Of a stretch of 5,037 bases of DNA, positions 1 to 5,037 are shown piece by piece (the stretch's first letter is position 1; each line of letters begins with the position of its first letter). The position numbers and the translations under genes are program-made. Under the pieces are notes generated by a model. It was not told where the DNA came from. It saw only the letters and a list, made by a program, of their open reading frames with translations, and ran no database searches. Origin of the DNA: an uncultured Chloroflexota bacterium (lineage in GTDB: Bacteria > Chloroflexota > Anaerolineae > Anaerolineales > Anaerolineaceae); the NCBI GenBank assembly GCA_902795255.1, contig CADBKS010000206.1, positions 1 to 5,037 of the forward strand. Reading direction: 5' to 3'.

Positions 1-241
1 CGATCGCCTTCCCGAAGCGCTCCAGCGGATAGCTGTGGTGCCCGTAATCCTTTTTATCCGGCGACATGGCAAGCACATTCACGGCCTGCCGGTTCAGCCA
101 TTTGGCCCCGCATTTTGCCATATAGTCATCCGAGGAATCCCCCAGCATTATGATCATCGCGCGGTCTGTTTTTTCGGCCGCCGGGTACCATGCTCCGTAA
201 AATCCGTCTTTTTCGGGTGTGAAATTCGCTGTCGGTTTCAT
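1..241 (-). CDS. Alpha/beta hydrolase-like protein, acyl-CoA thioesterase/BAAT C-terminal type (3' end outside window)
   Basis: Only the first 80 residues are present; the gene continues past the left edge. The ATG at 241-239 overlaps the TGA of the upstream methyltransferase as ATGA, and AGGAG (complement of 251-255) lies 9 nt before it, so the start is secure. Visible are an early GFYGAWYP stretch, a hydrophobic strand followed by a short acidic turn (AMIIMLGDSSDD, residues 28-39), a second strand (VNVLAMSP, 54-61), and then KDYGHHSYPLERF. This order, strand 1, a turn that could shape an oxyanion region, strand 2, then a Tyr/His-rich loop, resembles small Firmicutes alpha/beta hydrolases annotated as acyl-CoA thioester hydrolase/BAAT C-terminal domain proteins. 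The nucleophile elbow and catalytic Asp/His would lie beyond the window, so activity cannot be judged. There is no signal peptide, so it is probably cytoplasmic. The family call comes from remembered sequence pattern; the substrate is unknown. Confidence 0.6.
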   Translation of the reverse strand, partial: MKPTANFTPEKDGFYGAWYPAAEKTDRAMIIMLGDSSDDYMAKCGAKWLNRQAVNVLAMSPDKKDYGHHSYPLERFGKAI

Positions 242-846
242 TTATCTTTTCTCCTCATTACAGCGACTGTGCAGGGGATCCGGCCTTCCGCCGTCATCAG
301 CCGCACATCCGGATATCCGGCATCCAGAAAGAACTGTTTATAGCTTTCCGGTGTGAACTCCCGTTTGAAATCGGCCCCGGCTTTTCCCGCGGCGGCGGAA
401 AAGCTGTTTGAATTTCCGCTGCGGTCTTTGTTCATATAGGTCGGAATGATCAGTATCCCGCCGGGTCTGCAGACACGGTCCAGTTCCTTCAGTGCTTTCA
501 GCGGTTCATCCAGCAGGTGGATCACGTTCCCTGCGATCACTTTGTCAAAGCTGCTGTCCGGAAAGTCCAGTGCCGTGATGTCCGCGCGGCGGAATGTGAT
601 ATTATGGAAGCCTGAACAGTTTTTGGCTGCTTTTTTCAGCATTTTCTCCGAAAAGTCTGTTGCCGTGAGCGTTCGGCATTTCGCCGCGGCCACTGCGCTG
701 AGCAGTCCGGTCCCGCAGGCGCATTCCAGCACATCATCCTCCGGCCCGATCAGGTCCGCCACGATCGCGCGCAGTTTTTCGTGTGTTTTTCTGTTGACAA
801 CGTTCACAAACAGGTCATAAACGCCGGCGACATTATCCCAGAACAT
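238..846 (-). CDS. Class I SAM-dependent methyltransferase (UbiE/Methyltransf_11-like)
   Basis: This 202-residue cytoplasmic protein has the full Rossmann methyltransferase signature. Motif I is VLECACGTGLLS (residues 39-50), a variant of the usual D/E-x-G-C-G-T-G glycine loop with Ala-Cys in place of Gly-Cys. The acidic residue of motif II sits in TATDFSEKML (61-70), and the adenine-contacting acid in RRADITALDFP (86-96). Motif IV is the strand SFDKVIAGNVIHLL (99-112), and a CRPGG turn (126-130) precedes strand 5. The length fits small-molecule methyltransferases of this group. The acceptor substrate cannot be predicted. The ATG at 846-844 has AAGGAG (complement of 852-857) 5 nt upstream, and an in-frame TGA shortly upstream leaves no better start. 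Its stop overlaps the downstream hydrolase start by ATGA, implying one transcript and translational coupling. Control probably comes from the promoter and palindrome near 1071-1124. Confidence 0.88.
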   Translation of the reverse strand: MFWDNVAGVYDLFVNVVNRKTHEKLRAIVADLIGPEDDVLECACGTGLLSAVAAAKCRTLTATDFSEKMLKKAAKNCSGFHNITFRRADITALDFPDSSFDKVIAGNVIHLLDEPLKALKELDRVCRPGGILIIPTYMNKDRSGNSNSFSAAAGKAGADFKREFTPESYKQFFLDAGYPDVRLMTAEGRIPCTVAVMRRKDK

Positions 847-1070
847 GTTTGCTCCTTCATCAGCCGGATCTGAACGTCCGGCGTTCTTGTTTTTTGTTCA
901 AATCGGACCTTCCATCGCCGGCGGTCGTTCCTGACCGGCTCCGGCGGGGCCCTTTTGGGAAACACAGCGCTTTTTTGCAGGCTTTCAGGGGGCAGGATCT
1001 TCTATTTCCATCAAACCATGGGAGCGTGTTCCCCTTCTGATATTTGCGGTATTTATATCGGATCGGTTGA
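847..1070 (-). other. Long, structured 5' leader of the methyltransferase operon; no gene found
   Basis: If transcription starts just downstream of the candidate -10 box at 1096-1101, the leader is about 240 nt. No convincing reading frame is present on either strand. Several inverted repeats lie in it. The strongest has arms 917-926 and 933-945, a 10-bp stem with a 3-nt bulge and a 6-nt loop. Close to the ribosome binding site, two hairpins share bases and cannot form together: 863-868 with 877-882 (GCCGGA/TCCGGC), and 872-876 with 882-886 (GAACG/CGTTC). I recognise no known riboswitch or T-box sequence. Confidence 0.4.
917..945 (-). repeat. Strong imperfect hairpin in the methyltransferase leader
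   Basis: GCCGGCGGTC at 917-926 pairs with GACCG (933-937) and CCGGC (941-945), with GCT (938-940) bulged and GTTCCT as loop. It is GC-rich and not followed by a T-tract on either strand, so it does not look like a standard terminator. It may be a leader structure in the transcript, or only DNA-level symmetry. Confidence 0.5.
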
Positions 1071-1088
1071 AGTTAATATCTTCTAACT
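1071..1088 (-). promoter_or_regulatory. Candidate operator A (18-bp palindrome) of the methyltransferase operon
   Basis: On the minus strand the site reads AGTTAGAAGATATTAACT, an inverted repeat with outer 5-bp arms AGTTA/TAACT. It matches operator B (1293-1310), read in the direction of its own promoter, at 15 of 18 positions. It begins 7 nt downstream of the candidate minus-strand -10 box, so it would cover the start site, where a bound protein would block initiation. The regulator is not in this window. TTAG/CTAA-type arms recall DtxR-family metal-dependent repressors, but that assignment is inference. Confidence 0.55.
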
Positions 1089-1095
1089 GCGGTCA

Positions 1096-1124
1096 ATTAT
1101 AATCTCAAATTAGCTTTGTATAAC
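1096..1124 (-). promoter_or_regulatory. Candidate minus-strand promoter for the methyltransferase/hydrolase pair
   Basis: The minus strand carries a perfect TATAAT (complement of 1096-1101). At 17-bp spacing the -35 position (1119-1124) reads GTTATA, which is a poor match to TTGACA, so strength may depend on an activator or on the A/T-rich context. Support comes mainly from the -10 box and from operator A lying at the predicted start, mirroring the plus-strand promoter arrangement. Confidence 0.45.
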
Positions 1125-1164
1125 CATAAGGTCTGAAAATGCCTGATATCTGTTATGGCCGTTC

Positions 1165-1190
1165 CGATTTCCGGTGATCCGTTGAAATCG
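1165..1190. repeat. 10-bp-stem inverted repeat between the two divergent promoters
   Basis: CGATTTCCGG (1165-1174) pairs with CCG (1179-1181) and GAAATCG (1184-1190); TGAT is the loop and TT (1182-1183) is bulged. No T-run follows on either strand, so it is not a usual terminator. Smaller inverted repeats follow at 1192-1204 (GCCGG/CCGGC) and 1205-1223 (CTGAA/TTCAG). The stretch 1125-1254 has no reading frame of note. Its role is unknown; a regulator site, a small RNA structure or a degenerate repeat element are all possible. Confidence 0.5.
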
Positions 1191-1254
1191 CTGCCGGATC
1201 CCGGCTGAAATTCGCCGCTTCAGAATTTGTTTGGAATATATGTCATCAATTGAT

Positions 1255-1282
1255 TTGACTTTTCCGGAAAAACTCATATAAT
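1255..1282 (+). promoter_or_regulatory. Strong sigma-A-type promoter of the ZinT-like/GLUG gene
   Basis: TTGACT at 1255-1260 (one mismatch from TTGACA) and a perfect TATAAT at 1277-1282 are separated by 16 bp. The predicted start near 1289-1290 lies immediately before operator B, giving a leader of about 40 nt to the ATG at 1329. Confidence 0.85.
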
Positions 1283-1292
1283 AGTGCGTTAA

Positions 1293-1310
1293 AGTTAGAA
1301 TAGACTAACT
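1293..1310 (+). promoter_or_regulatory. Candidate operator B (18-bp palindrome) of the ZinT-like/GLUG gene
   Basis: The site is AGTTAGAATAGACTAACT, a perfect 6-bp inverted repeat (AGTTAG/CTAACT) with a 6-nt spacer. It starts 10 nt after the -10 box, so it overlaps the transcription start and the early transcribed region, the usual place for a repressor site. Its near-copy at 1071-1088 lies at the equivalent place for the divergent operon. A metal-responsive DtxR-like repressor would fit the ZinT-like product, but the regulator itself is not visible. Confidence 0.6.
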
Positions 1311-2984: not shown

Positions 2985-3018
2985 ACCGGACGGGGTGCTT
3001 TTCAGTGCCCCGTCCGGT
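2985..3018 (+). terminator. Hairpin directly after the ZinT-like/GLUG gene, probable first terminator
   Basis: ACCGGACGGGG (2985-2995) pairs perfectly with CCCCGTCCGGT (3008-3018), and two wobbles plus a C-G pair can extend the stem inward. It begins 6 nt after the stop codon. A run of seven T (3025-3031) follows only after a 6-nt gap, which is farther than usual, so it may act as a weak terminator or as a 3'-end stabilising stem ahead of the next hairpin. Confidence 0.6.
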
Positions 3019-3095: not shown

Positions 3096-3797
3096 TTATT
3101 CCGCCGTGAAGGTGATGCTTACGGTCGCGCTTACGACCAGTTTGGCAGCCTGTACGACCGTTCCGGCGTCTGCCGTGGCGGCTTCGACTTCCCTGCCTTT
3201 GGCGAAGCTGTTCCCGATGCTGTTTTCATAGCTGTAGAGGCTGCCTTCGGAGATGGATTCGATCCCGGTGATCTTTACGCCGGCGGCTTCAGCCAGGATC
3301 CCGGCTTTGTTCTGCGCGTCCTCAGTGGCTTTCTGCAGAGCTTCGCTTTTGGCGTCCGTGGTATCGGAGGCGGAGAACGAGATGCCGTTCAGGGTGTTGG
3401 CCCCGGAGGCAAAAGCCGCGTCGATCAGCGATCCGACACTTTCCATATCGGTGACCCGGATCGCCAGGGTGGAGCTGGCCTCGTACGCAGCAAGCTGTTC
3501 CTGGTCATTCTTATAGTCATAGATGGCGTAAATGTTGATGTATTCGGTGTTGATGTTCTCTTCTTTGATGCCCTCTCCGGTCATTGCTTTGCGGATGGCG
3601 GAAATGGTTTCATTGACCCGCTGCTGGGCTTGCAGGACGTCTTTGTCCCGGGCGCTGACGCCCAGGGAGATCACGGCGGTATCGGCGGAGACCCGCACTT
3701 CGCCGGTCCCGCTGACGGTGATCTTTGTTTCGGCGCTGACGGCAGCGGCCGTAAGCATCAGGATCAGAACAGTAAACAATGCAAACAGTTTTTTCAT
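3096..3797 (-). CDS. Exported SIMPL domain protein (DUF541, BP26/OMP28-like)
   Basis: This 233-residue protein has a signal peptide of 22 residues (MKKLF, a hydrophobic core, AVSA before Glu23). The remainder is a single SIMPL/DUF541 domain. It shows the family start ITVSGTGEVRVSADTAVISLGV (26-47, with Gly30, Gly32, Glu33, Asp39 and Thr40), then a helix RVNETISAIRKAM (60-72), GIKEENINTEYINIY (76-90), a YEASSTLAIRVTD segment (105-117), GSLIDAAFASGANTLNGISFSASD (122-145), and the helix EALQKATEDAQNKAGILAEAAGV (152-174). The length is normal for the family. SIMPL proteins are exported proteins of poorly defined role; mouse SIMPL is a signalling factor and Brucella BP26 forms oligomeric channels, but no function can be assigned here. 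An upstream in-frame GTG at 3824 is less likely as the start, because the Shine-Dalgarno lies between it and the ATG and the signal peptide begins at MKK. It is monocistronic and convergent with the ZinT-like gene. Confidence 0.88.
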   Translation of the reverse strand: MKKLFALFTVLILMLTAAAVSAETKITVSGTGEVRVSADTAVISLGVSARDKDVLQAQQRVNETISAIRKAMTGEGIKEENINTEYINIYAIYDYKNDQEQLAAYEASSTLAIRVTDMESVGSLIDAAFASGANTLNGISFSASDTTDAKSEALQKATEDAQNKAGILAEAAGVKITGIESISEGSLYSYENSIGNSFAKGREVEAATADAGTVVQAAKLVVSATVSITFTAE

Positions 3798-3806
3798 AAA
3801 AATTTT

Positions 3807-3812
3807 TCCTTT
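3807..3812 (-). promoter_or_regulatory. Ribosome binding site deciding the SIMPL gene start
   Basis: AAAGGA on the minus strand lies 9 nt before the ATG at 3797. It falls inside the longer frame that would begin with GTG at 3824, which favours the shorter product starting with the signal peptide. Confidence 0.7.
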
Positions 3813-3937
3813 CTCTTCTCTCACTCATCTGTACGGCGGCCGGGCCCGGAAAGTTCCCCCTGCACGGGTTTTGGGCGGAAACAGGTGTCTCTGCGTCTGT
3901 TCTTCGCGGCATTTTCCGGAGCAGATCCATGTGTTAT

Positions 3938-4064: not shown

Positions 4065-4081
4065 ACATGGGGTTTAACAAT

Positions 4082-5037
4082 ATGCGGAGCACGACGCTGT
4101 TTCTGGTTCCGGATTATTATCCGTATTTTCAATGTAAGATGGGGGCATGCCGTCACGCATGCTGTGAAGGCTGGCCGGTTTCCATTTCGATGGAAGACTA
4201 CTTTCACCTGGTCGGTGTCAGCTGCAGCCCGGATCTGCGGCGGCGGCTGGATACCGCGCTGCACATCCTCCCGCACCGCGGGGACGGAGCGTATGCGGAG
4301 ATCAGTCCCCGCTATGACGGGACCTGCCCGCTGCGGAATACGGACGGCCGCTGCGGTCTTCAGGTCGAGCTTGGGGAGGGGGCACTGGCGCAGGTCTGCC
4401 GGCTTTATCCGCGGGGACTTCGGGGCGGAGACCGGCCGGAATGCTCCTGTGCCAACAGCTGCGAGGCGGTTCCCGAACTTTTCATGCAGCGCAGTGAACC
4501 CATCCGTTTCATTTCGGTTCCGCTGGAATTCAGTGTCCCGGCGCATCGGGAAGCGGAAAACGTTTTTGAGACTGCCGGCCGCGGCCAGGAGATCCGCCTG
4601 TATTATATCCGGATCATGCAGAACCGCCGGCAGCGGATCCCGGACCGGCTGATGACGCTGGGGATCGCAATGCAGAAAATGGAGCAGGCCCTGCGGGCGC
4701 ATGATGAGGACCAAATCAGCGGCCTGCTTTCCGGCGAACCGGAGCTGTTCGGCGGTACTGCGGAGAAACCTTCCCAGGCGCATCTGGATGCCGGAATGAA
4801 GATCGCCGGGGCAATGCTTCAGCAGGTGGATGAACACAGCGAGAGCGTCCGTTCCTTCGGTAAGGAAGCGCTGCGCTGGTTCGCTGAAGCGGATAACAGC
4901 ATCGACCGTTATGAACGCGCCATTGCAAATTTCGAGACGGTCCTTCCCGACTGGGAGACTGTCTTTGAACACCTGATCGTGAACCACATGTTCTTCGAGC
5001 AGTTCCCGTTCCAGGATCGTCCGGTCCCGGTCTCGGA
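4082..5037 (+). CDS. FliB-like cysteine-cluster protein, flagellin lysine-N-methylase family (3' end outside window)
   Basis: The first 318 residues are present with no stop; the family is usually near 380-400 residues, so most of the protein is here. It opens with VPDYYPYFQC (9-18) and the hallmark C-x4-C-x3-C-C cluster (Cys18, Cys23, Cys27, Cys28) followed by GW, as in FliB-type proteins. Then come a CPL...GRCGLQVELGEGALAQVC block (Cys82, Cys91, Cys106), YPRGLR (109-114) and a C-x-C-x3-C group (Cys121, Cys123, Cys127). The cysteines probably bind a metal or iron-sulfur cluster. Salmonella FliB methylates lysines of flagellin; Clostridia carry many relatives under that name, often without proof of substrate. 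No signal peptide is present. TGGGG (4068-4072), 9 nt before the ATG at 4082, is a modest ribosome site; an in-frame ATG at 4067 would add five residues but lacks a site. No flagellar gene is in the window, so the substrate stays open. Confidence 0.8.
   Translation, partial: MRSTTLFLVPDYYPYFQCKMGACRHACCEGWPVSISMEDYFHLVGVSCSPDLRRRLDTALHILPHRGDGAYAEISPRYDGTCPLRNTDGRCGLQVELGEGALAQVCRLYPRGLRGGDRPECSCANSCEAVPELFMQRSEPIRFISVPLEFSVPAHREAENVFETAGRGQEIRLYYIRIMQNRRQRIPDRLMTLGIAMQKMEQALRAHDEDQISGLLSGEPELFGGTAEKPSQAHLDAGMKIAGAMLQQVDEHSESVRSFGKEALRWFAEADNSIDRYERAIANFETVLPDWETVFEHLIVNHMFFEQFPFQDRPVPVS

Follow-up and report, generated by a model that had tools for sequence, protein, structure and literature searches.

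Gene organization and paired candidate operators

The window, by which we mean the whole 5,037-nucleotide stretch of DNA analyzed, carries a gene for a secreted ZinT/GLUG protein and, on the opposite strand, a methyltransferase gene that overlaps the start of a hydrolase gene, and an 18-bp palindrome lies at the predicted start of each of the two transcripts. In the following list, L001 and L002 refer to the closest genomes with the locus (rumen or gut MAGs labelled Anaerolineaceae or Chloroflexi, with ZinT/GLUG proteins 81–82% identical to that of the window), and L101 comes from the same genome as L002.

2–241, minus strand: start of an alpha/beta hydrolase gene, overlapping the methyltransferase gene and truncated at the window end; this piece matched nothing in Pfam, L001 ortholog in the BAAT_C family
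238–846, minus strand: class I SAM methyltransferase (Methyltransf_11), 202 amino acids, from Pfam and the ORF
847–1070, minus strand: leader from operator 2 to the methyltransferase ATG, 224 nt; 26–27 nt in L001, L002, and L101
1071–1088, no strand assigned: operator 2, minus-strand sequence AGTTAGAAGATATTAACT, where the methyltransferase/hydrolase transcript is predicted to start; from the repeat search and shuffles, with TATAAT-N7-site kept in L001, L002, and L101
1096–1101, minus strand: −10 hexamer TATAAT of the methyltransferase promoter, from the sequence; conserved
1255–1260, plus strand: −35 hexamer TTGACT of the ZinT/GLUG promoter, 11/12 together with the −10 hexamer; TTGAC conserved
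1277–1282, plus strand: −10 hexamer TATAAT of the ZinT/GLUG promoter, from promoter prediction; conserved
1293–1310, no strand assigned: operator 1, AGTTAGAATAGACTAACT, in the predicted start region of the ZinT/GLUG gene; from the repeat search and shuffles, with arms kept in L001 and L002
1329–2978, plus strand: secreted protein of 549 amino acids with a signal peptide (by eye), a ZinT-like domain (about 27–235), and a GLUG beta-helix (about 236–549), from profile, fold, and alignment

Operator 1 begins 10 nt past the plus-strand TATAAT, which itself follows TTGACT after 16 nt. Operator 2, AGTTAATATCTTCTAACT when written from 1071 to 1088, follows a perfect minus-strand TATAAT (1101–1096) after 7 nt; no good −35 hexamer was recognized by eye for this TATAAT, and the promoter listing had no entry for operator 2. 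When each was read in its own direction, the two operators were identical at 15 of 18 positions. The initial annotation had described two matching 18-bp palindromes downstream of perfect TATAAT hexamers, and their positions, their identity, and the gaps of 10 and 7 nt all hold. A blind repeat search returned, as its top inverted repeat, the arms 1071–1088 and 1293–1310, and the pair also lay inside the top direct repeat. The pattern AGTTAGN6CTAACT with at most one mismatch occurred twice in the window versus not once in 200 dinucleotide-preserving shuffles, and with at most three mismatches it occurred three times versus 0.58 expected. The minus-strand operator is one letter off GTTAG-N6-CTAAC. 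Both sites are predicted to overlap the transcription start or −10 hexamer, as a DtxR/IdeR box does.

The 224-nt leader at 847–1070 had no Rfam match, and the loci compared with it showed no similar DNA beyond a 15-nt chance match. It contains a hairpin-like stretch at 863–886. Directly 3′ of the ZinT/GLUG gene lies a strong terminator-like hairpin of 15 pairs (2985–3018), suggesting a one-gene ZinT/GLUG transcript. The remainder of the window encodes a SIMPL (DUF541) family protein on the minus strand (3096–3824; PF04402, 167.4 bits) and a plus-strand product, cut by the window end, that matches the flagellin lysine-N-methylase FliB (4067–5035; 136.8 bits, cut-off 85).

The ZinT-like domain matched AdcA (7jja) at the profile level with an E-value of 5.1e-4, and Foldseek placed it with 7jja (E 1.3e-5) and with ZinT entries. 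When 20 members of the protein family were compared with Pfam, five families matched (up to E 1), none of them a ZinT model, and a repeat structure comparison of the model gave no ZinT among the 50 rows listed, the list being filled by the beta-helix half. The earlier designation of the product as ZinT-like stands at the profile and fold levels. Residues H131, H180, and H306 were invariant in the alignment of the ZinT/GLUG family. This is a large unnamed secreted family combining a ZinT-like domain with a GLUG beta-helix; its 79 genome loci are mostly from gut or rumen MAGs, and some members have approximately 250 extra N-terminal residues.

Sequence and spacing of the core motif

The motif was characterized in the 79 loci encoding ZinT/GLUG relatives (664,561 bp), which are related to one another, so that the counts are not independent. 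The exact sequence GTTAG-N6-CTAAC occurred 69 times in these loci, whereas spacers of 0–5 and 7–14 nt gave 0–5 occurrences each. With the 12-letter form and one mismatch, N6 gave 69 matches, no other spacer exceeded 8, and the maximum among 89 permuted half-sites was 11 (median 0). The exact cores were also concentrated in position: 60 of the 69 lay at most 2.7 kb upstream of the ZinT/GLUG match (189,029 bp), versus 9 in the other 475,532 bp. Counted by locus, 54 of 79 had a site at no more than one mismatch, 43 had an exact core, and 63 had either; at these cut-offs, 16 loci had no site. The reversed pattern was found in 0 of the 79 loci. The core is better written GTTAG-N6-CTAAC than with its outer A..T, because the latter is only weakly conserved in the relatives (A 0.33, G 0.30, T 0.33). 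The first spacer position avoids G (0.03).

Among 41 directed sites, the gap from the site to a TATAAT-like hexamer was broad, and many sites lay upstream of the hexamer or overlapped it. This rules out a fixed −10 distance at every site, and the gaps of 10 and 7 nt are therefore specific to the window promoters and their orthologs. In L020, four sites with one or two core mismatches (2862–2984) lie between divergent DUF2325-like and DUF3793-like genes.

Conservation at orthologous promoters

At the ZinT/GLUG promoter, TTGAC, TATAAT, and both arms of the palindrome were kept in the window, L001, and L002, with variable spacer bases. At the methyltransferase promoter, TATAAT-N7-GTTAG..TAAC was kept in L001 and L002, 26–27 nt 5′ of the ATG. 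Absence from orthologous intergenic regions had been named at the outset as a refutation of the shared-operator idea, yet both sites were found there and were conserved one by one. In L001 and L002/L101, the two sites are approximately 2.2 kb apart, with two genes between them, and each is retained at the same distance from its TATAAT. Because both are kept at this separation, they are best regarded as separate operators for which looping is unneeded. The pair of genes inserted between the divergent promoters of L001, L002, and L101 (L101 5051–6627), which is absent in the window, resembles hipB/hipA by eye.

A DNA search detected the methyltransferase gene in 2 of the 14 genomes of the genus, namely those of L001 and L002. 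Outside the genus, the Clostridia MAG L053 encodes an ortholog of 68% identity with an exact core 44 nt upstream; the orthologs in L020 and L029 had no exact core within the 350 nt searched.

Genes associated with the motif

Genes were placed with a rough gene caller. In the 79 loci, 77 genes adjoined 61 site clusters, including 20 from the ZinT/GLUG group and 14 from the DUF3793 group; the L096 member of the latter was checked against Pfam. In the five closest genomes (G001–G005), sites at no more than one mismatch were not enriched by number (30 versus 64 for the reversed control), so that the argument there lies in which genes the sites precede. These are DUF3793–flavodoxin, DUF3793–ZinT/GLUG, feoA–feoA–feoB, flavodoxin, methyltransferase, and ApbE-type genes, along with some genes that have no evident link. 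Among 30 FeoA loci from 21 genomes, 5 (at four places) carried a site at no more than one mismatch; more carried two-mismatch sites, a class for which no background was computed.

In Clostridia, the exact pattern AGTTAGN6CTAACT was present in 77 of 196 evenly drawn genomes, with 136 sites versus 30 for the reversed pattern. Thirty motif loci were taken from this even draw, one per genome, and 15 of them carried FeoA/FeoB, DUF3793, flavodoxin, DUF2325, or DtxR. Eight of the other 15 were resolved by Pfam as FecCD (L203), Trep_Strep (twice), two ABC transporters, an AraC regulator, a heavy-metal ATPase, and CobW. Only 2 of the 30 Clostridia sites were inside an ORF of at least 100 amino acids (rough caller), and one of these, in L204, is probably an antisense artefact beside feoA. 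Together with the 60 of 69 cores lying upstream of ZinT/GLUG genes, this sets aside the concern raised in the initial annotation that the motif might be scattered through coding DNA. The reverse test gave the same spacing: among 17 DUF3793 loci chosen irrespective of the motif and coming from 15 of 60 Clostridia genomes that formed part of the same draw, 11 held the exact N6 core versus 0–1 for the other spacers from 0 to 12, and with one core mismatch, N6 gave 12 versus 0–5. ZIP-family metal transporter genes were found near exact Clostridia sites in L126, L128, L129, and L130, the last by Pfam.

The exact pattern was not enriched in 100 Anaerolineae genomes (8 versus 18), and the case there rests on position. 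Four of the eight exact Anaerolineae loci were intergenic; of these, L224 and L225 have the site at the start of a DtxR gene, and L227 has it just before feoAB. Lone sites stand at many promoters elsewhere. The idea of a small regulon around one intergenic region, as first proposed, was too narrow. The motif marks feoAB, flavodoxin, DUF3793, DUF2325, FecCD, and GLUG genes.

DtxR-family regulators in motif-bearing genomes

The sites, their conservation, and their genomic companions were established by computation, as was their link to DtxR genes in other genomes. A DtxR-family gene adjoined the site, on either side, in 8 of the 30 evenly drawn loci (L190, L192, L193, L197, L205, L206, L211, and L219), and a Fur gene did so in 0 of the 30. 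The site lies between divergently oriented DtxR and feo genes in L183, L190, and L192. Locus L183 is from Clostridium sporosphaeroides DSM 1294. Fur genes were likewise absent from 114 other loci (L001–L079, L095–L116, and L126–L138). DtxR genes were not found in the 79 ZinT/GLUG loci, in the 22 stretches around the sites of G001–G005, or in the first 13 Clostridia loci (L126–L138). Each of G001–G005 had one PF02742 (DtxR-family) match, and four of the five had FUR-family matches; the loci of approximately 3 kb around these five DtxR genes had no site at two or fewer mismatches. In the nearest kin of the window, in which no DtxR gene was found beside a site, the link between site and regulator therefore rests on co-occurrence. 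PF02742 was present in 14 of 16 Clostridia genomes; the other 2 gave no match, including G012, which carries an exact site.

When 30 PF01325 loci were listed by score, 4 had an exact N6 core and none had an exact core at any other spacer from 0 to 12. In the 21 of these loci that were parsed, the exact site lay upstream of 2 of the 6 regulators with a Cys metal site and of 0 of the 15 without. The L120 protein scored 40.8 bits with PF01325 and 53.9 bits with PF02742 (cut-offs 26 and 27). An alignment of 14 of the 26 proteins found showed regulators of 124–155 amino acids with a winged helix and a metal/dimer domain and no SH3 domain. Residues C100, E103, and H104, the equivalents of IdeR Cys102, Glu105, and His106, were invariant in all 14. 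Residue 9, the equivalent of IdeR Met10, was Asp or Asn in all 14; it was Met (EMYL) in the motif-linked L193, L206, and L211. The best solved relatives were MntR chains, in which Glu99 aligns with C100. Since C100 is IdeR-like and Asp/Asn at residue 9 is MntR-like, the aligned regulators are, by their residues, hybrids of the IdeR and MntR metal sites. G021 (L169) encodes a 218-amino-acid DtxR member of another type.

Comparison with known regulons

The motif resembles the actinobacterial IdeR/DtxR iron box (TTAGGTTAGSCTAACCTAA; PMC1382209, PMC8464063, and PMC10317159, in the parts available) in its TTAG-N6-CTAA half-sites at the same spacing. It also shares with that system the overlap of the box with the start or −10 hexamer (predicted here), the iron-uptake genes, and the Cys-Glu-His of the primary metal site. 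According to the accessible text of PMC10317159, repressed genes have IdeR boxes that overlap the transcription start, the −10 hexamer, or both, one repeat is contacted per IdeR subunit, and the base contacts are made by Ser37, Pro39, Thr40, and Gln43, of which the Gln43 contact is reported, in the same papers, to be dispensable for recognition. The available portion of PMC8464063 describes a half box occupied by one IdeR dimer and a proposed Saccharopolyspora erythraea consensus, TTAGGNNNNCCTAA, which corresponds to TTAG-N6-CTAA. Several differences separate the present motif from these boxes. Unlike the 19-bp double-dimer box TTAGGTTAGSCTAACCTAA, only the single-dimer half is conserved here, and the outer and spacer positions are weak. 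The G/C beside the spacer of the IdeR box is not conserved (G 0.03), whereas the outer G..C is part of the core. By alignment offset, the L120 residues at the four IdeR contact positions would be S36, P38, S39, and I42, and the loss of Gln would fit the finding that the base adjoining the spacer is no longer conserved. In contrast to the IdeR/DtxR iron subgroup, the aligned regulators are short and lack the SH3-like domain, and the present system belongs to Clostridia and to a gut/rumen genus of Anaerolineae rather than to actinobacteria.

The regulators resemble the manganese regulator MntR in size, two-domain architecture, best PDB matches, and Asp/Asn at residue 9, but differ from it in having Cys at the Glu99 position and feoAB and flavodoxin genes at their sites. 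The ligands given in the available part of PMC10317159 are Met10 and Cys102 for IdeR and Asp/Asn and Glu for MntR. This recent review also states, in the part available, that most low-GC Gram-positives use Fur for iron and that their DtxR proteins are confined to manganese sensing. The gene order feoA–feoA–feoB in motif loci L107, L114, L204, and L205 recalls feoAABC of Faecalibacterium duncaniae (PMC10781979, available sections). In that species, excess ferrous iron represses feoAABC, and in high-acetate culture a flavodoxin gene increased along with it, a likeness to the flavodoxin genes at the motif sites. The available text of PMC10781979 contains 0 occurrences of “dtxr” and describes no operator or regulator. 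Titles and abstract beginnings in open PMC, including those on DtxR, TTAGGTTAG, or dimers, gave no description of the Clostridia box, which may be published elsewhere.

Proposed regulation and alternative explanations

We consider it probable, at about 85%, that a small DtxR-type metalloregulator, probably iron-sensing, keeps both operons repressed by lying over the transcription start. The initial annotation had proposed one repressor for both operons, which is well supported by the conserved sites at both orthologous promoters, and a DtxR-like metal-dependent regulator, which is likewise well supported by the motif at feoAB, flavodoxin, and FecCD genes and with a DtxR gene in 8 of the 30 loci as opposed to Fur in none. 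We infer the presence of this regulator in the window genome, its binding to the two sites, iron as its metal, and a repressive effect. The regulator would be short and MntR-sized, would lack an SH3 domain, and would share its Cys-Glu-His metal-site residues with IdeR. In cells replete with metal, most likely iron, a metal-loaded dimer would sit on GTTAG-N6-CTAAC at each transcript start and block RNA polymerase. Upon iron shortage, the dimer would leave, and the ZinT/GLUG gene and the methyltransferase–hydrolase operon would be switched on in concert with feoAB, flavodoxin, and DUF3793 genes at other places in the genome. One dimer per operator, covering the start, would be the simplest mechanism, given the single IdeR dimer on the half box TTAGGNNNNCCTAA (PMC8464063, available part). 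Iron is favored by the feoAB, flavodoxin, and FecCD genes at the sites and by the repression of Faecalibacterium feoAABC by excess iron (PMC10781979, in the sections available). With the Asp or Asn at residue 9 that the aligned proteins share with MntR, the regulator may instead sense manganese or show mixed sensing.

The alternatives concern the metal, the protein, and the mode of binding. A regulator of the MntR-like manganese (or zinc) branch of the same family, with a regulon that answers to Mn or Zn and not to iron, would agree with the MntR chains as the best solved relatives, and with the ZIP genes near sites and the ZinT-like gene that carries one; however, FeoAB, flavodoxin, and FecCD are iron genes, Cys100 replaces MntR Glu99 in an IdeR-like manner, and the motif-linked L193, L206, and L211 have Met at residue 9, as in IdeR. 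We regard this reading as unlikely, even with the Asp/Asn at residue 9 of the aligned proteins, which is the MntR state (PMC10317159, available part). That the palindrome is bound by a regulator of another type (Fur, MarR, TetR, or AraC), with the DtxR gene being only a frequent neighbor, seems quite improbable. Fur-family proteins do occur in 4 of the 5 closest genomes, AraC genes adjoin sites in L138 and L208, and many loci have no DtxR gene beside the site, but both the half-site and its spacing agree with the IdeR half box, and the exact site was upstream of regulators with a Cys metal site (2/6) and not of the others (0/15) among the 21 parsed PF01325 loci. Fur itself was rejected as the regulator after no Fur gene was found in the 30 motif loci or the 114 other loci.

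The suggestion in the initial annotation that the repressor binds both sites jointly, looping the approximately 220 bp between them, had in its favor a distance of 222 nt, or about 21 helical turns by arithmetic. With the same two sites approximately 2.2 kb apart, across two genes, in L001 and L002/L101, and with lone sites at so many other promoters, looping is very unlikely. It is scarcely credible that the palindromes arose by chance or act as RNA-level hairpins in 5′ leaders with no protein ligand: both would fall within the transcribed leader, but no such site appeared in 200 shuffles, the N6 spacing is strict while the spacer sequence is free, and there was no Rfam match.

Returning to the DtxR-type repressor, we lean slightly towards a wider picture in which much of the Clostridia would control iron homeostasis not by Fur alone but by a compact DtxR-family sensor with a hybrid MntR/IdeR site, reading the single-dimer GTTAG-N6-CTAAC at feoAAB, flavodoxin, DUF3793, DUF2325, and its own gene. 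In the gut/rumen Anaerolineae genus to which the window's kin belong, this regulon, possibly obtained from Clostridia, would drive ZinT/GLUG and methyltransferase/hydrolase modules that are uncharacterized and may have a role in metal scavenging. If true, the occurrence across the Clostridia of a DtxR-type iron box ahead of feoAB, flavodoxin, and DtxR genes would alter the Fur-for-iron rule for abundant gut bacteria, and the motif would become a tag for iron-starvation genes of unknown function, such as those for DUF3793, DUF2325, ZinT/GLUG proteins, and methyltransferases. Relative to known DtxR/IdeR iron regulons, the spread in Clostridia and the ZinT/GLUG and methyltransferase operons are the notable new elements; beyond the initial observation, the analysis defined the true core and the breadth of its use in Clostridia, tied it to DtxR and feo genes, showed the two operators to be independent, and recognized a ZinT-like fold.

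At or close to sites in L098, L099, L101, L102, and L126 there are SAM methyltransferase genes of several types, which are possibly metallophore-related. In L102, an LCM-type methyltransferase gene adjoins an ABC transporter gene, and in L126/L047, a methyltransferase gene follows a ZIP gene.
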